Shown piece by piece: positions 8,171 to 23,957 of a DNA stretch of 33,753 nucleotides. The stretch is from Klebsiella pneumoniae (lineage in GTDB: Bacteria > Pseudomonadota > Gammaproteobacteria > Ga0077536): assembly GCA_945861225.1 (NCBI GenBank), contig CAMATU010000023.1:1-33753 (forward strand). The letters run 5' to 3'. Every line of letters begins with the position of its first letter. Position 1 is the stretch's first letter. The notes under the pieces are model-generated. The model did not search any database. It was not told the origin of the DNA and saw only the letters and a program-made list of their open reading frames with translations. The position numbers and the translations under genes were made by a program.

Positions 8171-10354
8171 TCACCCCGGCGCACCCCGCTTCAGATCTGC
8201 TTCCAATACGCTGGTCTCGCGCTTGGTGCGAGGTGTCGCATCGTGCATTTTCAAACGTGGCCACAGCGCCTTACGGACTTCTTCCGGCAGCACATTCTCG
8301 AGGTACTCGAGCGCGGTGCCACTGAGGTTGCGATCAGCGCTTGCGACGGCCTGCAGGGCGAGTGACAGGGCCTCGCGATCGAGCACCAGCCCGAGCAGGG
8401 TGAAGACATGCTCCATGCTGTAGTTGAGTGGCGACTGCGCGGGACTTGGGACGGCCATGAGATCCTCCGGTAAATCGATCTCAAGCTGGAGATCCTGGGC
8501 TGACCAGGTCGCCTGATCCACGTTCACTTCGCGCGCGATGGCCGCGAATACCTGCGCTTCCGCGACTTGCATGCAGGGATCGCGCGCGCGCATGCGCGCC
8601 AAGGCACGCGCGCAGCTGTAGCGGATATTGAATTCTTCTTCTTCGAGACCATACATAAGCACTGCCACCGCGCGCGGGCTGTGCACCACTTCCAGCACAC
8701 TCGGCAAACGTTGCCGCGCCGCGAGGAACAAATCCGGATTCGACATCGCGTCGGCGAGGCTGCCGATAATCTGCGGCGTCATCCAGCGCAACTCCATGCG
8801 CACGTCCTCCGCGAGGGCATCGTGAGCGAGCAGTGGAATCAGTGCTGGCACCAGGCGCGGATCCATGAAGCCGCCATGCAGACAATGCTTGATGCGGGCG
8901 AGCTCGCCTGAACTTAGTTCCACGATGGCCTTCGCTAAGCATTCAGCATTCGGATCCGCGCTCAGCTCGTCATGGGCAGGGCTCACTGGGCGCGCCGGCA
9001 CCGGCCCCCTGCGCGCGAGCTTCATCTGCCGAATGCGCAACATGAGCAGTTCACGTTCGGTGGCGGGTGACGCCTCGGCGAGGGTAAGCCTGGTGGTCGC
9101 ATCGATTACCTGGTCTTCACTGAGGCTGATCGCGCCGGCCCGCAGACTGTCCGCCAATTGCTCGACATAGCCCCGATAGAGCCGCGATACCAGCAACAAA
9201 ATAAGCAGGGCGCAGAGAATTGCGGCAGCGGCCAACAGGCGTGGCGACGGATTTGGCACGAGCCACATCAGCCCCAACAAAAACCCACTACCGAGTAAAT
9301 CGCCCACGCGATCAGAGGCCACATCGATGATGGCCTTGGTCGGGCGCTTCGTCAGAGGCGGAAGCGGTGTGTAGAGCAATTCAAACGCCGCCCGGAAAAA
9401 TGAATTTCCGAAGGCCATCTGCGCGGCGCGCATCATCACCACACTGCCGAGGCGCGGCAGTGCGAAAGTGACGAGCCCAAGAAACACCGTACACGCGGGC
9501 ATGATCGCCAACGTGACCCCGATGCCAAAGCGCCGCAGCAGCTGTGGCCCAAGCAATGACTGCACGGCGAAGGTCACCACGCCAACCACCGCATAGAATT
9601 GCCCGAACAATGCCGCGAGATCCTCGCCACTCGCGAGCCTGGCTGAGGCTTGTGACTTAAAAGCATAATCGAGAATCGCGGCGAGCATTGCCACCACGAC
9701 CATCGCGCACCCCATCAGTTGGAGGTAGCGGTGGGAGAACAGCAGCTGTAGCCCCGATTGGAAACCGAGATTGGTCGGTGCTGGCGCATGCGGGCGCTGC
9801 GACTCGCCAATGGCGCGCACCACCACCGCACAGGCGACGTGTAACAGGGCCAGCGCCAGCAACATCGCGCGCAGTCCGATCGCGGGCGGCACCTGCCCGG
9901 CAATCACGCCGCCGAGCACGCCACCAAGGGTGGCTGCCGCGCCCACTTTGGCGATGGTTTGCTTGGCGGTGTAGGGATCGAAACGTTCATTGATCACCGA
10001 CCAGAAGCCGCTGATCAACACCGCGCCGAAAGCCGCCATGTGCAGATACAAAATCACCGCGACAACCCGTGGCGCGCTCGCCATCGCCAGCCATTCGCCA
10101 GTGAAGCAAAGCGCACTGACGAGGAAGGCGCTGCAGATCACCCGCAAGGGACCGAAGCTTGCCAGCAGCCGCGCGATCAGCAGCACGGCAAAAATCGATA
10201 AGGTGGCCGCTGTCATCACCACCCTGGGTAAATCGGCGACTTCAAACTGCGAGAGAAAAATCGCGTCGCGCGTGGCTTTGCCCGCCACCTGCTGCGCGAT
10301 GATTAAGGTCGCGGCGCACAGCGCCCACGCGGTTGGCGGCAACAGACGCGACAT
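8171..10354 (-). CDS. NTT (ATP/ADP translocase-like) membrane protein with C-terminal HEAT-like region
   Basis: A 727-residue protein. Residues 1 to about 410 hold 11-12 hydrophobic segments, including GFWSVINERFDPYTAKQTIAK followed by GAAATLGGVLGGVIAG. This fits the FW-x-N-x-F...AK...GAGG-x-LG pattern of the nucleotide-transporter (NTT/TLC) and related MFS-like families. The remaining ~300 residues are soluble, Leu/Ala-rich and helical, with pieces such as RLVPALIPLLAHDALAEDVR and EEEFNIRYSCARALARMR that look like HEAT repeats. NTT-HEAT fusions are known in free-living bacteria, where the substrate is usually undetermined. I chose the ATG at 10354; a TTG at 10363 is possible. It follows its shorter relative by 33 bp, which suggests an operon. 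ATP/ADP exchange is not demonstrated. Confidence 0.75.
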   Translation of the reverse strand: MSRLLPPTAWALCAATLIIAQQVAGKATRDAIFLSQFEVADLPRVVMTAATLSIFAVLLIARLLASFGPLRVICSAFLVSALCFTGEWLAMASAPRVVAVILYLHMAAFGAVLISGFWSVINERFDPYTAKQTIAKVGAAATLGGVLGGVIAGQVPPAIGLRAMLLALALLHVACAVVVRAIGESQRPHAPAPTNLGFQSGLQLLFSHRYLQLMGCAMVVVAMLAAILDYAFKSQASARLASGEDLAALFGQFYAVVGVVTFAVQSLLGPQLLRRFGIGVTLAIMPACTVFLGLVTFALPRLGSVVMMRAAQMAFGNSFFRAAFELLYTPLPPLTKRPTKAIIDVASDRVGDLLGSGFLLGLMWLVPNPSPRLLAAAAILCALLILLLVSRLYRGYVEQLADSLRAGAISLSEDQVIDATTRLTLAEASPATERELLMLRIRQMKLARRGPVPARPVSPAHDELSADPNAECLAKAIVELSSGELARIKHCLHGGFMDPRLVPALIPLLAHDALAEDVRMELRWMTPQIIGSLADAMSNPDLFLAARQRLPSVLEVVHSPRAVAVLMYGLEEEEFNIRYSCARALARMRARDPCMQVAEAQVFAAIAREVNVDQATWSAQDLQLEIDLPEDLMAVPSPAQSPLNYSMEHVFTLLGLVLDREALSLALQAVASADRNLSGTALEYLENVLPEEVRKALWPRLKMHDATPRTKRETSVLEADLKRGAPG

Positions 10355-10387
10355 TGAAGACAACGCGTATCGCGCCTGGCTAATCAG

Positions 10388-11650
10388 CTAGGCGCTCGCG
10401 AGCACGGTGCGATACGCCTGCGCGAGCTGCACCAGGGTCAGAATCCACAGCGCACAGATTAACGCGGTAAGCCACGAAAGTTCAGCCGCATTCCCAGGCC
10501 CTAACCACGCGTTGGCCAGCAGGATCAAGCCTGAGCCAAGCGCCTTGAACAGACGATAACCGAACATGTCGATCCAGGCCTTGGCCTGATAAGTGAGGAT
10601 GGGATCGACCGGGATATACAACAGCTCTTTAGACGCGCGATTGATTGAATAGGAAAGCCCGCGATCACTGATTTTCATGATCGCGGCCATGGTAAGCGTG
10701 GTGTGAAAATAAAACGCGATGGCCCCCATCGCGAGCACTATCGGTTGCACGACCAGCCCGCCCATCGCACCAAACGCGCGATGGATGACCGGGGTTACCA
10801 AGACATTGATGAGAATTGAGACCACGCCCATCAAGCTGAAGAACTCGCTGATGTAGGCGGTGAGCTGATCGGTGTCCTGAAATTTCTGGGCGGCCACCTG
10901 CAAGAATTGAAACTCAACGATGGGTTGTGCCAGTTGCGAGAGGCACAGCAGGACTGCGATCAACATCAGGTAGCGATTATGCAGCAGCGATCGCCAGTCC
11001 CCGGCGGCGGTGTGCGGCGCGCCACTCTCGTGCACCTCGGTGTACAACCCAGCGCGCCACAGGCCGATATTGAACACGAACACCACCAGCAACAAGCCCG
11101 CGCAGGAATACAAAAGATCTGCCGTTTGCAAGCCAATGTGGGTCACTAAAAAGCTCGCGAGAAGCCCGCCCACCACGCCGCCAACCAAGCCGCCGGTGCC
11201 CACGAACCAGAAACTTTTCGCTCCCTGATCGGCGCTGCTGACCGCGTCCGTCAAACTCCAAAATTGTTCTACCAACACCACACTGAAGATATCGACAAAC
11301 ACATAGAACAGCGTCGCTCCGAACAGATCATGCGGGGTGAACACCACGCGAAACAGCACCATCCCGAGTGAAAAGAAAAGTAGCGAAATGAGCACAACCT
11401 TCACGCGTGAGTAGCGCTCAACCAACACATGGTATCCGCTAATGAGCAGCATCAGCGCGAGTGCAGAGTAAACCCAGGCATAGGGCAAGGCATCGGCGCC
11501 ACCAAATTCGATCAACAACGAACGTGAGGCGGCCTTCACTTGGTAGTAGGCGAGAATGATCAGGAAGAAATTTGCAAACAACGCGAGTGAACGGCCGAAG
11601 AGGATGGCGCGTGGCGCTGAAGTGAGTGAATTGTGCGCGCTGGCTTGCAT
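10388..11650 (-). CDS. NTT (ATP/ADP translocase-like) membrane protein
   Basis: A 420-residue protein with about 11-12 hydrophobic segments and no soluble C-terminal domain. It shares with its downstream neighbour the pattern QFWSLTDAVSSADQGAKSFWF followed by GTGGLVGGVVGGLLAS, so the two are probably distant tandem paralogues. It also has the YQVKAASRSLLIEFGG segment typical of the N-terminal part of NTT-like proteins. I chose the ATG at 11650 because the 24 residues added by the upstream start at 11722 are hydrophilic and overlap the divergent gene's promoter and 5' end. It is divergent from a serine hydrolase gene with 60 bp between starts. Its substrate is unknown, and a general MFS transporter remains an alternative. 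Confidence 0.75.
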   Translation of the reverse strand: MQASAHNSLTSAPRAILFGRSLALFANFFLIILAYYQVKAASRSLLIEFGGADALPYAWVYSALALMLLISGYHVLVERYSRVKVVLISLLFFSLGMVLFRVVFTPHDLFGATLFYVFVDIFSVVLVEQFWSLTDAVSSADQGAKSFWFVGTGGLVGGVVGGLLASFLVTHIGLQTADLLYSCAGLLLVVFVFNIGLWRAGLYTEVHESGAPHTAAGDWRSLLHNRYLMLIAVLLCLSQLAQPIVEFQFLQVAAQKFQDTDQLTAYISEFFSLMGVVSILINVLVTPVIHRAFGAMGGLVVQPIVLAMGAIAFYFHTTLTMAAIMKISDRGLSYSINRASKELLYIPVDPILTYQAKAWIDMFGYRLFKALGSGLILLANAWLGPGNAAELSWLTALICALWILTLVQLAQAYRTVLASA

Positions 11651-11710
11651 GCTGCGATTGTTAAAATGTCTTGCCGCTGGCTTAAACCCGATGCTACAGT
11701 CCGGGCACGT

Positions 11711-12604
11711 ATGGGGAGACACCGTAACATAATTGGGTCATTGCTGGCCCTGCTGCTTACCAGTAGCGCGCTTGCCGATGGCCTCGGTGACAACTCCTCC
11801 CTGCGCGAGAGCTACGACCCCGAACTGCAGAGCGCGCTGCAGGGTGAACTGAACAAGCTCGGCCTGGGCCCCGCACTCGCTGCTGAGAAACTCTGTGTGG
11901 CACTGGTCGATATGACAGAAATCGATGCGCCCAGAGTTGCTGAGATCAACGGCGACACCATGCTCTACGCGGCCAGCCTGCCGAAAATTGCGATCCTGCT
12001 GAGCGCCTTCGTGGAAGCGGAAAGTGGCGAGTTAACGCTTGACCGCCGAACCCGCGCATCACTGACCCGCATGATTCGGGTGTCTTCCAATACCGATGCG
12101 ACCTACATGCTGAATCGTGTGGGCAAACGGAGAGTCAATGCAATTCTGCAGTCTGATCGCTTTCGTCTCTACGATCCCTTGGTGAATGGCGGACTGTGGG
12201 TGGGCAAAGAATATGCGCAGGGCGCGGCCTTCGAACGCGATCCGCTGCATCATCTCTCGCACGGTGCGACGGCGATGCAGGTCGCGCGTTTCTATTACAT
12301 GCTCGAAAGCGGCGAGCTGGTCAACGCAAAGCTCACCCGCGAAATGAAGCGGATGCTGGGCAACCCAGGCATCCACCACAAGTTCGTGCGTGGCCTGGCG
12401 GATCGCCCGGGCGTTAAGATCTATCGCAAGTCCGGCAGTTGGCAGCAATGGCATGCGGACAGTGCGCTGGTGGAAGCGGCCGGTCACACCTACATCATGG
12501 TCGCCTTGGCCGAAAATCCCCGGGGTGGCGAGTGGCTGGCGGCCATCGCGCCCCGCCTGCACGATTTAATCGTCCCTACCCGCGTCGCCGCGAATACTCA
12601 CTAA
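11711..12604 (+). CDS. Exported SxxK serine hydrolase (class A beta-lactamase / PBP fold)
   Basis: A 297-residue protein with a clear signal peptide (MGRHRNIIGSLLALLLTSS, likely cut after SALA before DG). It carries all three active-site motifs of the penicillin-recognising serine enzymes: S89-LP-K92 (in AASLPKIAIL), S125-S-N127 (in RVSSNTDATYM) and K240-S-G242 (in IYRKSGSW). The last is a KSG variant of KTG. These enzymes are beta-lactamases, DD-peptidases or esterases. I see no clear Glu166-type omega loop, so I would not call it a beta-lactamase. The ATG at 11711 is used; an upstream in-frame start at 11633 would bury the signal peptide. It is divergent from the NTT pair and convergent with pyk. 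Confidence 0.85.
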   Translation: MGRHRNIIGSLLALLLTSSALADGLGDNSSLRESYDPELQSALQGELNKLGLGPALAAEKLCVALVDMTEIDAPRVAEINGDTMLYAASLPKIAILLSAFVEAESGELTLDRRTRASLTRMIRVSSNTDATYMLNRVGKRRVNAILQSDRFRLYDPLVNGGLWVGKEYAQGAAFERDPLHHLSHGATAMQVARFYYMLESGELVNAKLTREMKRMLGNPGIHHKFVRGLADRPGVKIYRKSGSWQQWHADSALVEAAGHTYIMVALAENPRGGEWLAAIAPRLHDLIVPTRVAANTH

Positions 12605-18208: not shown

Positions 18209-19495
18209 TCAGCGCGCAGCAAATGAGGCGCGATGAACGCTGCGCAGCGCGGCGCTGAGTTCATCCGCCGTGCTGAACCGGTCTTCCGGCTGCTTGGCGA
18301 GCAGGCTGTCGATGATCGGTTGAAAGCGACCGAGCGCCGCCGGCAGGTGCGGAATGTCCGCATGCACGTGCTGATAGACCAGCGCGGGTGCGCTTTCCGC
18401 GCGATAAGGCTTGCGGCCAGTCAACATTTCATAGAGCACGACGCCGGCGCTGTACAGATCAGAACGGTGATCGACCAGCTTGCCCATCGCCTGTTCCGGC
18501 GAAATATAGTTCGGGGTGCCGAGCACGCTGCCATTACGAGTCAGTTCACTGGTGTCATCCAGGCGTTTGGAAATACCGAAATCTGCCAGCGCCAAGCTGT
18601 CATCCGAGCGGAACATGATGTTCCCCGGCTTGAGATCACGATGCACGATGCCGACAGCATGAATCGCGCGCAGGCCGTGCGCGATGTGCATCACATAATT
18701 CACGGCGTCGTCAACCGACACCCCGTGTTCGATCCGTTGCTTGAGATCACCGCGGGTGAAAAATTCCATCGCGATATAGCCGTAGGTTTCGGTAAATCCA
18801 TGCTCCAGAAAATGCACCACATAGGGACTTTCAAGGCGTGCAATCAGCTCGGCTTCGCGCACAAAGCGTTGCAGGACCTGATTTTCCTTCACGTTGGTGA
18901 TATCGATCACTTTCAACACCAGAGTCGAGCGATCACTTGCCCGTTCAGCCAGGTACACCCGCGAGGTTGCACCCTGACCGATCAGCCGCACGAAGCGAAA
19001 ACCGATGCGCTTGCCGTCGGGCGTCTGCTCTGCAGCAGGCGGCCGAATCTCCGCGAGGATCTGGGCATCCTTCTGGAGTTTGAGATTGCCGGGTTCAGTC
19101 GCATCCGGCTGCAGCGCAAGACGCTCGCGAATGACTTCTCTGATTAACTCAAGCAGCCGCGCAGTGGTGATGTCTTCCTTGCGAATAATCTCCGCCGCGC
19201 CGAACTTGATAGCCTTGGCAGCCACATACTCATCACCGACGGCGGTCATCAGAATGGTGGGTGGAAATCCTTTGGTCTGGCGATAGCGCACCAACCAATC
19301 CAGGCCGGTTTCCTGGGTCCCCAATTGATAGTCGAGGATCAGCACGTCATAGATCGACCAGTCAAAATCCGGTCCCGGCGCGCCCTGTTGTTCCGGATCG
19401 TATTCAGTGACTTCCACTTCCGGCAGCCCCTTGGCAATCAGCCGCCGCGTGAGGGTCATGAATTCCCGGGAGTCGTCCACAATAATGATCTTCAT
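18209..19495 (-). CDS. Response-regulator receiver fused to a serine/threonine protein kinase
   Basis: A 428-residue soluble signalling protein. Residues 1-120 are a CheY-like receiver with acidic pocket D7/D8, phospho-acceptor D55 (VLILDYQLG), T84 and K106. Residues ~165-428 are a Hanks-type kinase with glycine loop GQGATSRV (173-180), ATP-anchoring K195 (LVLKVID), catalytic loop HRDLKPGN (D287), DFG at 305-307, activation segment GTPNYISPEQ and a DLYSAGVVLYEMLTGRKPY helix. All catalytic residues are present, so both phosphotransfer chemistries look possible: a histidine kinase would phosphorylate D55 and thereby tune Ser/Thr kinase output. There is no membrane segment or PASTA domain. The gene is divergent from the dikinase-like gene across 95 bp and lies upstream of lon. 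No cognate histidine kinase is nearby. Confidence 0.92.
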   Translation of the reverse strand: MKIIIVDDSREFMTLTRRLIAKGLPEVEVTEYDPEQQGAPGPDFDWSIYDVLILDYQLGTQETGLDWLVRYRQTKGFPPTILMTAVGDEYVAAKAIKFGAAEIIRKEDITTARLLELIREVIRERLALQPDATEPGNLKLQKDAQILAEIRPPAAEQTPDGKRIGFRFVRLIGQGATSRVYLAERASDRSTLVLKVIDITNVKENQVLQRFVREAELIARLESPYVVHFLEHGFTETYGYIAMEFFTRGDLKQRIEHGVSVDDAVNYVMHIAHGLRAIHAVGIVHRDLKPGNIMFRSDDSLALADFGISKRLDDTSELTRNGSVLGTPNYISPEQAMGKLVDHRSDLYSAGVVLYEMLTGRKPYRAESAPALVYQHVHADIPHLPAALGRFQPIIDSLLAKQPEDRFSTADELSAALRSVHRASFAAR

Positions 19496-19590: not shown

Positions 19591-22560
19591 ATGAATTTTA
19601 ATTTTTCGAGAGGAAAGCGCACACAACTTCAGCTCGTAGCCACCTTCCCTTCAGGTGCACTCGCGCTGCTCGCCTGCCTCAGCAGCGCGGTGCTCGCAGG
19701 CGACGCGCCGACGCTCGCTGCCGACGCAGGAATGTATCGGCAGTGGATCGCGGCCATGAAAATGGACCGACGTGGTCCTTTTGACCAGATTCGCTGGTTC
19801 TGCAACGACGGCGCCGTGCTGCTGCCCACCCCTGGCGCCTGCGTCGCGCATGACGGTGGTAATCAGCATGGACAATGGTCGGCACACACCAAAGCACTGC
19901 GCGAGGCGGGCTTTAAGATCGCAAATTTCTACGCCGATTTGGCAATCGACGAGTTGCTTGCGTCTGATCCCACCTTCAGCCCGCTGGCGCAGATGCTGGT
20001 CGAACAGTTTTTGATTCGCGCAGACGATGGCTGGATCGTGCGCCAGGCCCGCTTTTATCGCGGCGCCTATCAGGAAGAGGGCGAACGCAAAGGCGCACGG
20101 AAGCTATTGCTCCGTCTGCTCGGGGATGCGGACTGGACCGCCAATCGCTGGCTGTTTGTGCGCAACGCGGTCAGTTCGCTGCCACATGGTCCGGAGACTG
20201 GCTCGGTGCGCGAGGTGCGCCAACTCTCGGCCACCTTGTCCGCGCGGGATGCTGCCTTCATGCCGGTGCGCAATCAAATCCACGGCCGTCTGCGCGCCAG
20301 CGATGCGGAGACGGTGCGCACCTATGCCGCGCGACTTACCAGTGGACAGGCGGACTATCTGCGTCTGGCAGGTTTGATCGATGCGCTCTATGCGCAAGAT
20401 GCAGGCGATACCTTACAGGCCTTGCTGGCAAAGCTGCCTGGCACATCGCCGCTGGCAAGCGCGCTCAAACCAGAACTCGTGGCTTGGCTGGCGCCGCTTA
20501 ATGTCGAGCCGTTGACCCGTACACCCTATGTCGCGCGCGCCCTGGCCGCTTTGCGTGATGGGGCGATCGTCACGGACTCAGCCTCTTTACGGTTAGAAAT
20601 CCTCGATGCGAGCGTGCTTCTTGAGAGCGAATACTTCACTTTGCTTGCAGCGCTCAAACCAGCGCTCGCCGGTTGGTCGCGGCACCAACGAATTGATTTT
20701 GCGCGTAGTAATCTCGATGCGCTGTACGGCACGGGGTTACTTTCTGTGCGACAACGCGACGCGTTGCGCGCAGAAATCGCTGACTTCCTGGCGTCTCCGC
20801 GCACCCCACAGGATTACAAGCGAACGGCAGACTATCTCGCCCTGGTTCCCCATTGGGCGACGCAGGCACACCGCCTGTATTTCGGGCAGGCCATCGATCA
20901 GCTCACCACTATCGAACCGAAGGCCACCTTGTTTATCCAGGACGCCTTGCGCGGCAGCCCGTTGTTTTACTATTCCGCCCTGATGGACACGCTGGTGCGG
21001 GATGCCAATCAGGCGCGCGGCGTGCGTAACGAACTCTTCGGGGAGAATGTTGGCGGGGGTTTGCGCGGCCTCAATCCCGGACTCACACGCGGGGTGCTGC
21101 ATATCGTGAGCAATGAGACAGCCAGCTCAACCTTCGACCGTCACGGCATCTATGTGCTGCCGGAAACGGTGTCCGATCTGCCACCGGTAAGCGGCATCGT
21201 GACTGCAGGCGAGGGGAATCCGCTGTCTCATGTGCAATTGCTGGCGCGTAATCTCGGCATCCCCAACGTGGCGATTGAAGAACGATTGCTTACCAAGCTC
21301 CATCCTTATGACGGGCAGGAGATTGTGCTCGCAGTAAGTCCTGGTGGATCGGTCCGTTTGGCGGCACTGGATGCGCAAACCTCTGCTTTGTTCGACGCCG
21401 CGCCGGTGACGAATACCCAACCGGTGATTACCGTCGATCTGGCCAAACTGGACCTAAGTCGACGCGAGTTTATTAACCTCGCGGATCTCCGCGCGGGCGA
21501 CTCTGGCCGCGTGGTGGGGCCGAAAGCGGCGAAGCTTGGCGAACTTAAATATCACTATCCGCAGGCCGTCGCCGAGGGCATTGCCATTCCGTTCGGGGCG
21601 TTTCGCGCCGTACTCGAGCAACCACTGCCTGGTGGTACCGGAACAATTTTTGACTGGATGAAGGCCGAGTATGCCCGCCTTGCAGCACTGCCGAGCGAGA
21701 GCGCTGAGCGCCGCACGGAAACCGCTGCCTTTCGCAGTCACCTCGAGCAGTTGATCACCACCATCGATCCTGGCACCGAGTTTCGCGCGACGCTCAGCGC
21801 GAAAATGCGCGAAGTGTTTGGGGCGGACGGCAGCTTTGGAGTGTTCGTGCGCAGCGATACCAATGTGGAGGATTTGGCGGGCTTTACCGGCGCGGGCCTG
21901 AATCTCACGTTGCCGAATGTGGTTGGCTTCGCCGAGATCTTCAAGGCCATCGCGCAAGTTTGGGCCTCGCCCTTTAGTGACCGCTCGTTCGCGTGGCGGC
22001 AGTCGCTAATGACGACCCCGGAACATGTCTACCCTGCAGTCCTTCTGCTGAAGAGTGTGGATAACGACAAATCCGGCGTATTGGTGACCCACGATATCGA
22101 CACCGGGCGCGCGGACTGGTTGTCCGTTGCGCTCAACGAAGGGGTTGGCGGTGCTGTTGATGGGCAATCGGCCGAATCGGTGCGCATTCGCATGCGCGAC
22201 GGGGCGATCCGATTGCTGGCACAGGCGAGCGCGCCCTTGCGCCGGCAAATCGCCGCCACCGGCGGCGTTACCTTGCTGCCTGCGAGTGGGCGCGACGCAG
22301 TATTACAACCTGCTGAAGCCGCCCTGCTGGTGAATCTCGCGCGCGAACTGCCGCAGAAATTTCCACCGATTGTCGATGCACAAGGTGGCGCGGCACCGGC
22401 CGATATCGAGTTTGGATTTCTCAATGGCGAGTTGCGGCTCTTCCAGATTCGCCCGTTTCTGGACAATGCACAGGCGCGCGGCGCCGGCTATCTCGTAGCC
22501 ATGGACGCAGTGAGTGCTAGTCCCCCGCTTACAAAAATCGATCTTGAGCAAGTGCCATGA
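19591..22560 (+). CDS. Apparently exported phosphohistidine/ATP-grasp dikinase (GWD/PEP-synthase-like)
   Basis: A 989-residue protein. The N-terminus has basic residues, a hydrophobic core and a likely cleavage site (AVLA before GD), so it looks exported; LLAC could alternatively be a poor lipobox. Residues ~30-530 are helical and unrecognised. A phosphohistidine (PEP-utiliser mobile) domain follows, with GNPLSHVQLLARNLGIPNVA and the acceptor His547. An ATP-grasp PPDK-N domain runs from about 640 to the end: GPKAAKLGEL (from G643), FVRSDTNVEDLAGF (Arg754), SGVLVTHDIDTG, DIEFGFLNG and QIRP (952-955). His domain before ATP-grasp, with no PEP-binding barrel, is the order of glucan water dikinase. 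All key residues appear intact. I chose the ATG at 19591 over a TTG at 19513 because it exposes the signal peptide. Its stop overlaps the next gene's start. Confidence 0.82.
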   Translation: MNFNFSRGKRTQLQLVATFPSGALALLACLSSAVLAGDAPTLAADAGMYRQWIAAMKMDRRGPFDQIRWFCNDGAVLLPTPGACVAHDGGNQHGQWSAHTKALREAGFKIANFYADLAIDELLASDPTFSPLAQMLVEQFLIRADDGWIVRQARFYRGAYQEEGERKGARKLLLRLLGDADWTANRWLFVRNAVSSLPHGPETGSVREVRQLSATLSARDAAFMPVRNQIHGRLRASDAETVRTYAARLTSGQADYLRLAGLIDALYAQDAGDTLQALLAKLPGTSPLASALKPELVAWLAPLNVEPLTRTPYVARALAALRDGAIVTDSASLRLEILDASVLLESEYFTLLAALKPALAGWSRHQRIDFARSNLDALYGTGLLSVRQRDALRAEIADFLASPRTPQDYKRTADYLALVPHWATQAHRLYFGQAIDQLTTIEPKATLFIQDALRGSPLFYYSALMDTLVRDANQARGVRNELFGENVGGGLRGLNPGLTRGVLHIVSNETASSTFDRHGIYVLPETVSDLPPVSGIVTAGEGNPLSHVQLLARNLGIPNVAIEERLLTKLHPYDGQEIVLAVSPGGSVRLAALDAQTSALFDAAPVTNTQPVITVDLAKLDLSRREFINLADLRAGDSGRVVGPKAAKLGELKYHYPQAVAEGIAIPFGAFRAVLEQPLPGGTGTIFDWMKAEYARLAALPSESAERRTETAAFRSHLEQLITTIDPGTEFRATLSAKMREVFGADGSFGVFVRSDTNVEDLAGFTGAGLNLTLPNVVGFAEIFKAIAQVWASPFSDRSFAWRQSLMTTPEHVYPAVLLLKSVDNDKSGVLVTHDIDTGRADWLSVALNEGVGGAVDGQSAESVRIRMRDGAIRLLAQASAPLRRQIAATGGVTLLPASGRDAVLQPAEAALLVNLARELPQKFPPIVDAQGGAAPADIEFGFLNGELRLFQIRPFLDNAQARGAGYLVAMDAVSASPPLTKIDLEQVP

Positions 22561-23957
22561 CCTACGTCCGAACTTACGCTGCACGCGGCGACGGAGCTGT
22601 CCGGGAAATAACGGAGCGCTATGCGCGATTTCTCTACTGGATTGCTTCGCGTTCGCGCGCCAAGACGCTCAGCAAAGAACTGGCGCATGGCCTGGAGCTC
22701 GGGCTCACCATTTGCCTCTTCGCGCTCAGCCTGCCGCTTGGTGCCTATCCGCTCGATAGCTATGAAGTCACCGGCATTGGGCGCCTCGAAGAAGCGCGGC
22801 GGGTGCAGGCTGGCGAACTGAATGGGGTCAAACAACCCAGCGGCGCGCTGTTGACACGCGAGCAGGTCACGCCTCGCTTGCTGGCGTACAAAAATCTTGA
22901 ACTGCCCACACCAGATCCGAAGTTCACCGCTGAGATTACTCACTTGCTCGGCGGCTTTGCCGATCGCTACGCGTTGGCGGTGCTCGACATTAGCGATCCA
23001 GCGCAGCCGGTGTATGCAGAACTCAATGGCAAGGTGAGTCGCAATCCGGGTAGCGTGGGGAAACTTCTCGTCGCGCTTGGCGTGTTCCAGGCGCTGGCCG
23101 ACATCTACCCTGACGATCTGGAGAAACGCTGGCAGCTGTTACGCGATACACCCGTCATCGCCGACGAATTTGTGATCTCGGATTCGCACACCGTGCGTCG
23201 CTGGGATCGCCAGCACGAGCGGCTGATTCGGCGTCCACTACAACCCGGCGATCCCGGTTCATTCTTCGAGAATCTGGACTGGATGCTGTCTGCGAGTTCC
23301 AATTCGGCGGCTGGCACGGTGGCGAAACAGGGCATGCTGCTGAAGGCGCTGGGCACCGCCTATCCCCCGGACGATGCGGCGGGCAAGGCCTTCTTTCGCC
23401 AAACGCCGCGCGGGGAATTATCGGCGCTATTGGCCGATTTTATTGAAACACCCGTCACGCGTAATGGTCTCGATCTCACTCAGCTGCGCCAAGGCAGCTT
23501 TTTCACCCGCGTTGGCAAGCAGAAGGTACAAGGCAAAAGCAGTTACGCGACTGTGCGCGAACTCATGAAATTCATGCTGCGACTGGAACAAGGCCGGATC
23601 GTGGATGAATTTTCATCGACTGAAATCAAGCGCCTGTTGTATTCCACCGAACGCCGAATTCGTTACGCCTCATCGCCAGCGCTGGTCGATTCTGCGGTCT
23701 ATTTCAAGAGCGGCTCGCTGTTTGGCTGCCAGCCTGAACCGGGCTTCGTGTGCCGACCGTACCAGGGCAATGTGCGCAATTTCATGAATTCGGTCGCCAT
23801 TATCGAATACCCGTCTGGTGACCGTCGGCTGCATTACATTGTGTCGTTGATGTCGAATGTGCTGCGCCGAAATTCCGCCGTCGATCATCAGAGCTTGGCG
23901 ACTAAGATCCACCGCCTGCTGCAGGCGCGGCATCTTGCACCGGTTGGATCGAACTGA
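22557..23957 (+). CDS. Membrane-anchored SxxK serine hydrolase (PBP/beta-lactamase fold)
   Basis: A 466-residue protein. Residues 1-47 are polar and basic, then one hydrophobic segment (LGLTICLFALSLPLG, about 50-65) suggests a signal anchor with the enzyme domain in the periplasm. The catalytic motifs are S166-VG-K169 (PGSVGKLLVAL), S247-S-N249 (SASSNSAAGTV) and K384-S-G386 (YFKSGSLFGC), again a KSG variant. Two nearby cysteines (FGCQPEPGFVCRP) could form a disulfide after export. The ATG overlaps the stop of the dikinase-like gene as ATGA, so the two are translationally coupled and probably act together. Substrate is unknown: DD-peptidase, esterase or amidase are all possible. The 3' end of the gene is partly duplicated about 213 bp downstream. 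Confidence 0.83.
   Translation: MTYVRTYAARGDGAVREITERYARFLYWIASRSRAKTLSKELAHGLELGLTICLFALSLPLGAYPLDSYEVTGIGRLEEARRVQAGELNGVKQPSGALLTREQVTPRLLAYKNLELPTPDPKFTAEITHLLGGFADRYALAVLDISDPAQPVYAELNGKVSRNPGSVGKLLVALGVFQALADIYPDDLEKRWQLLRDTPVIADEFVISDSHTVRRWDRQHERLIRRPLQPGDPGSFFENLDWMLSASSNSAAGTVAKQGMLLKALGTAYPPDDAAGKAFFRQTPRGELSALLADFIETPVTRNGLDLTQLRQGSFFTRVGKQKVQGKSSYATVRELMKFMLRLEQGRIVDEFSSTEIKRLLYSTERRIRYASSPALVDSAVYFKSGSLFGCQPEPGFVCRPYQGNVRNFMNSVAIIEYPSGDRRLHYIVSLMSNVLRRNSAVDHQSLATKIHRLLQARHLAPVGSN

Follow-up and report, generated by a model that had tools for sequence, protein, structure and literature searches.

Introduction

In glucan water dikinase (GWD) and phosphoglucan water dikinase (EC 2.7.9.4 and 2.7.9.5), a phosphohistidine domain comes before a C-terminal ATP-grasp domain (PF01326). 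PEP synthase and pyruvate phosphate dikinase (PPDK) begin with the ATP-grasp domain and end in a PEP-binding barrel. Rifampin phosphotransferase (RPH) has the order ATP-grasp, rifampin-binding domain and His domain. ATP/ADP carriers of the NTT kind are those of chloroplasts and parasites. According to standard teaching there is no ATP in the periplasm, and chemistry in the cell envelope is assumed to use other energy sources.

In the plant carrier NTT1, ADP binding depends on K155 and ATP binding on K527, and transport requires E245 (PMC3306366). According to a 2017 survey, the characterised NTTs of parasites import ATP, NTTs are found in many free-living bacteria, where they are functionally uncharacterised, and experimental work covers a small part of NTT diversity (PMC5381601).

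We analysed a stretch of 33,753 nucleotides, here called the window, that encodes a dikinase-like protein (P1), two SxxK hydrolases (P2 and c2), and two transporters of the NTT/TLC family (Table 1).

Table 1. Features of the window, with the evidence for each.
Feature	Coordinates	Strand	Evidence or remark
Second NTT, 730 aa, with C-terminal HEAT-like repeats	8171..10363	-	PF03219 43.5 bits; HEAT_2 22.1 bits (under the cut-off)
NTT/TLC-family nucleotide transporter, 444 aa, true start uncertain	10388..11722	-	PF03219 64.8 bits
c2, second SxxK hydrolase, predicted to be exported, true start uncertain	~11711..12604	+	PF13354 67.9 bits
Response regulator-Ser/Thr kinase, divergent from P1, possible regulator	18209..19495	-	PF00072, PF00069
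P1, dikinase-like protein, predicted to be exported, 989 aa	19591..22560	+	frame confirmed
P1 signal peptide, residues 1-36	19591..19698	+	predicted cleavage near VLA-GD
P1 N-terminal domain, residues 50-485	19738..21045	+	WFCxDG...C motif, then helical array
P1 phosphohistidine (swivel) domain, residues ~490-600 (approximate boundaries)	21058..21390	+	PF00391 at 524-561; alignment to PEP synthase 8a8e
P1 His547 codon	21229-21231	+	
P1 ATP-grasp (PPDK_N) domain, residues 641-961	21511..22473	+	PF01326, Foldseek
P2, SxxK serine hydrolase, predicted to be exported, 466 aa	22557..23957	+	PF13354, 24.3 bits vs cut-off 22

Results

P1, P2, c2 and an NTT form a conserved gene set. The frames of P1 and P2 overlap by ATGA. 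A first-pass annotation of this DNA had pointed to this overlapping hydrolase and its S-VG-K, SSN and KSG motifs, and we found the frames, the overlap and the motifs as described. That annotation had missed the partners that lie about 8-14 kb upstream of P1 in the same window, namely a second SxxK hydrolase and two NTT/TLC transporters, and these bear directly on a paradox that it had raised, that an exported enzyme of this type would need ATP where ATP is not normally available. Mapping of the neighbours of P1-P2 gave two further conserved clusters, c2 and the NTT/TLC transporter.

We found P1 in 14 of 58 related genomes and P2 in exactly those 14, so that the conservation of the gene pair, which the first-pass annotation had proposed checking, was complete among these relatives. 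The gene for c2 was present in 13 of the 14 genomes with P1 and in none of the 44 others; the sole P1 genome without it, G044, has a P1 that is broken by a TAG codon. NTT matches at E 1e-8 or better were found in all 14 P1 genomes (as a fragment in G044) and in 10 of the 44 others, and NTTs of one type (g10) were found in 11 of 14 versus 0 of 44 (Fisher p 1.6e-9, with kinship ignored). These co-occurrence counts ignore phylogeny, and most of the compared genomes are drafts. Presence is patchy even within the genus of the window. The response regulator-Ser/Thr kinase adjoins P1 only within the same bacterial family.

The association between P1 and NTTs extends beyond these relatives. We also sampled 247 genomes of the phylum to which G454 belongs, the genome that includes contig L040 (Desulfobacteraceae). 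P1 was present in 2 of them and NTTs in 30, and in each of the two P1 genomes the contig with P1 also carries an NTT, about 4 kb away at most. Altogether, 21 genomes, drawn from two phyla, have an NTT at most about 12 kb from P1; 17 of them were identified by locus map and four by coordinates (G004, G033, G182, and G317). The NTTs linked to P1 belong to three subfamilies, which suggests repeated association. A check of the NTT loci of ten P1-lacking genomes found no P1, P2 or c2 nearby. One draft genome, G124, has an intact P1-P2 pair, and no NTT was found in it. In G294, a degenerate P1 from which His547 and a large part of the ATP-grasp motifs are missing is not adjacent to P2, and a search of that genome found no NTT. 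A search of plasmids for P1 gave only PEP-synthase-like ATP-grasp matches. Gene set, conservation and co-occurrence are direct observations, and the module is almost certainly real and conserved.

Several details were seen at individual loci. A P1 homologue at L078:7832-10885 is split by an in-frame TAG, due to decay or an assembly error, in a genome in which c2 was not found. At two loci (L070 and L071), a large protein with a sequence like that of SpoIIE-type phosphatases is encoded a short way after P2; together with the response regulator-kinase, this is a possible kinase-phosphatase regulator pair. At L140:6039-10619, in a genome that lacks P1, an NTT gene lies between genes for two exported-looking proteins that resemble, by eye, a glycoside hydrolase and a calcineurin-like phosphoesterase, and from this locus NTTs may have other envelope partners.

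P1 is almost certainly exported, judging from its N-terminus and those of its homologues. We collected P1 homologues from related genomes and named contigs and checked the 38 full-length ones, with start codons picked by a script that favours a hydrophobic core; all 38 have such a core before the first conserved block, mostly preceded by a basic start. The best-core hydropathy of the P1 homologues was 1.4-3.6, compared to 0.0-2.1 for the 11 scorable cytosolic relatives of PEP synthase, two ranges that overlap slightly. Conservation of P1 residues 1-25 is only 13%, whereas mature P1 is well conserved, as expected of a signal peptide. The signal-peptide-like start reported in the first-pass annotation is therefore borne out, and a search for homologues that begin past the hydrophobic segment, which would have meant a cytoplasmic enzyme, gave a result that favours export. 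Cys71 and Cys84 in the N-terminal domain of P1 are invariant and Cys391 and Cys399 of P2, which are candidates for a disulphide, are nearly so, and together these fit an oxidising compartment. We considered P1 as a lipoprotein and rejected this; its homologues have no consistent lipobox Cys.

The N-terminal domain of P1 gives no hint of the substrate, since it lacks a solved fold match. This region corresponds to the roughly 500 residues that had been left as unrecognised in the earlier reading. AF2 models the domain with confidence as an array of helices (pLDDT 89.4), and a fold search against solved structures gave no match below E 0.001 (best E 0.086).

P1 has a phosphohistidine domain followed by an ATP-grasp domain, each with conserved catalytic residues. 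The Pfam PPDK_N profile (PF01326) matched P1 residues 641-961 with 78.5 bits (cut-off 27), and the PEP-utilizers profile (PF00391) scored just under its cut-off on residues 524-561 (21.7 vs 23.1). The order of the two domains is as the first-pass annotation had claimed. His547 is within the sequence SHVQLLARN, which aligns to the catalytic-His region of PEP synthase (8a8e). This histidine and the QIRP motif, the loss of which in relatives was one of the points to be checked, are invariant across the P1 homologues, with the sole exception of the degenerate homologue (L087:7057-9972) mentioned above for G294. Residues K645, R754, E760-D761, E940, Q952 and R954 are invariant or absent from a single homologue; all of these other than E760-D761 align to ATP-binding residues of PEP synthase and PPDK and are invariant save in L087. 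The degenerate homologue has kept the signal peptide and the N-domain motifs and has lost His547 and the ATP-grasp residues. The model of mature P1 has a pLDDT of 86.6 and a pTM of 0.83, and in a Foldseek comparison it matched the ATP-binding domain of RPH (5hv6) with a TM-score of 0.82 (by target). His547 is probably phosphorylated from ATP.

The export signals and the conserved catalytic residues are seen directly, and from them we infer export and catalysis themselves. It is very unlikely that P1 is instead a cytoplasmic or catalytically dead protein with a misread signal peptide. The start of P1 in the window is a predicted one and L087 shows that catalytic residues can be lost in this family, but signal peptides are present in 38 of 38 homologues and in both hydrolase partners, and the catalytic residues are invariant in every homologue other than L087.

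P1 combines the domain order of one group of dikinases with the ATP-grasp fold of another. It resembles PEP synthase, PPDK and RPH in its ATP-grasp fold and ATP-binding residues (5hv1, 5hv6, and 2ols) and in its catalytic-His motif, and differs from them in its reversed domain order, its predicted export, and the absence of a PEP/pyruvate barrel or rifampin domain: no Pfam profile for a PEP barrel matched P1, and NCBIfam scores were far below cut-offs. P1 shares its domain order with GWD, and its His and ATP-grasp motifs presumably resemble those of GWD. By analogy, a His relay is expected in P1. Unlike GWD and phosphoglucan water dikinase, which were compared by domain order only, P1 is bacterial, predicted to be exported, and has a helical array as its N-domain, and neither of the starch-binding modules CBM45 and CBM20 was matched in it by Pfam at E up to 1. 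We do not claim that P1 is a member of the GWD family.

The similarity to RPH raises the question of whether the gene set might inactivate antibiotics outside the cytoplasm, with a rifampin-phosphotransferase-like enzyme acting together with beta-lactamase-like hydrolases. The closest solved ATP-grasp folds are indeed those of RPH, and PF13354 is a beta-lactamase family. However, P1 matches RPH in the ATP-grasp part alone, and its domain order and N-domain are unlike those of RPH. Within one genus (g126), many of the members sampled also have the set, which is more like a standing function, and the NTT would be left unexplained. We consider this role very improbable.

P2 and c2 are SxxK hydrolases of the PF13354 class-A-like type, with which they have the SxxK, SxN and KSG motifs in common. 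In P2 these are S166-V-G-K169, S247-S-N249 and K384-S-G386, and they are kept in its relatives; in c2, the open frame of which runs from 11633, they are SLPK, SSN and KSG. P2 differs from the known PF13354 hydrolases in its conserved disulphide candidates and in having no match in a PDB sequence search, and c2 had short PDB matches only (Tll2115, 2j7v). Signal peptides are present in both. The first-pass annotation had taken P2 to be membrane-anchored. Its hydrophobic stretch, which is near the start in most relatives, ends (mostly, in relatives) in AxA directly before a conserved YPLD, and thus has the appearance of a signal peptide that is cleaved off, not of an anchor. In P2 of the window the hydrophobic segment is preceded by about 48 residues, which is unusually long, and no further in-frame ATG, GTG or TTG is found downstream.

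The linked transporters belong to the NTT family and differ from plant NTT1 at residues needed for nucleotide binding and transport. The two NTT genes of the window are the only TLC matches in the whole host genome. A profile of the NTT family matched the solved ADP,ATP carriers NTT1 9j3n (E 8.5e-34) and 9j3j (E 1.4e-22), with all next matches at E 0.011 or worse, and the alignment to 9j3n is nearly full length, spanning positions 22-417 of the 426 in the profile. We compared individual residues using partial chains from the PDB search output, from which the residue numbering was also inferred. In the linked NTTs the position of K155 is a gap, and E245 is replaced (by Asp in the g10 type). A Lys or Arg at the K527 position is kept in the g10 type only, and is replaced in the other two of the three linked subfamilies. 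A Glu or Asp is found at the position of E385, although not equally in all. Thus, the family of the carrier is clear from its homology, whereas exchange of ATP and ADP, and with it the nucleotide and its direction, is something that we infer. The tandem arrangement of two NTT genes of different subfamilies (8171-11722, minus strand), the second with HEAT-like repeats, is found in the window and in several relatives.

Whether the linked NTT supplies the nucleotide to P1 is, in our judgement, evenly balanced. The exported set might instead be as described above, with the NTT-like carrier moving some other nucleotide or a phosphorylated compound, as the product or the substrate of the pathway, and P1 obtaining its nucleotide from elsewhere, for example from released or environmental ATP. 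This is unlikely, but it deserves real weight. The missing equivalent of K155 and the replacement of K527 in two of the three linked subfamilies are consistent with it, as is G124, with P1-P2 and no NTT found. It fits less well with the association of three NTT subfamilies with P1, and with the fact that, among solved structures, the linked family aligns over its full length to ATP/ADP carriers only.

We also considered that P1 might run in reverse, using a phosphorylated donor to make ATP outside the cytoplasm for the NTT to import, as a form of energy scavenging. PPDK-type reactions are reversible, and import would be in keeping with the parasite NTTs mentioned above. However, neither a PEP-type barrel nor a donor domain is found in P1, the reaction would require AMP, together with PPi or phosphate, outside the cytoplasm, and the neighbourhood gives no pointer to such a donor. 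Only a very slight chance can be given to this direction.

Discussion

We propose a four-part envelope module that consists of an exported His-relay dikinase, two envelope hydrolases, and a linked NTT as nucleotide supply, a model that we regard as having equal chances of being right or wrong. In this model, an NTT-family carrier in the inner membrane would supply the periplasm with cytosolic ATP, taking up spent nucleotide or phosphate in exchange. P1, exported by Sec, would bind that ATP in its C-terminal ATP-grasp domain, transfer a phosphate onto His547 of the swivel domain, and pass it on to a substrate bound by the helical N-terminal domain. P2 and c2 may serve the same envelope pathway, with their action either preceding or following the phosphoryl step; this order of steps is conjectural. 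As for the substrate, an envelope glycan or peptide polymer is a guess, and a rather doubtful one. The model in its most specific form, in which ATP reaches the periplasm of some free-living Gram-negatives through a dedicated exporting NTT and an exported His-relay dikinase uses it to phosphorylate an envelope substrate with two SxxK hydrolases, has somewhat less than an even chance of being correct.

Several points count against the model: the missing equivalent of K155 and the retention of K527 in the g10 type only, the draft genome (G124) in which no NTT was found, the His-domain match just below its Pfam cut-off, the genome counts, which ignore phylogeny and come mostly from drafts, and the product of the reaction. 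A dikinase would release AMP, a nucleotide that known carriers of ATP and ADP would not be expected to accept, and if P1 is a true dikinase, then a second enzyme or carrier would be needed to handle the AMP.

No system known to us from published descriptions combines an NTT with an ATP-grasp enzyme that is exported. Each of the proteins, considered singly, is a divergent member of a known family. The transporters are like known NTT/TLC carriers (PF03219; NTT1 9j3n, 9j3j) in the full-length profile alignment, and unlike them in the missing K155 equivalent and in the linkage of their genes to that of a putative exported dikinase. No description of the gene set was found among open-access papers, and the available part of the 2017 survey of NTTs makes no mention of P1-P2-c2-NTT (PMC5381601).

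The gene set suggests a dedicated way of powering cell-envelope chemistry, and offers a first concrete candidate role for the NTT carriers of free-living bacteria. If the model is correct, a clade of NTTs would have a function outside parasites and plastids, and the rule that there is no usable ATP in the periplasm would be contradicted. That rule becomes open to testing through a gene set in which an ATP-grasp enzyme, predicted to be exported, is paired with a relative of the ATP/ADP carriers.
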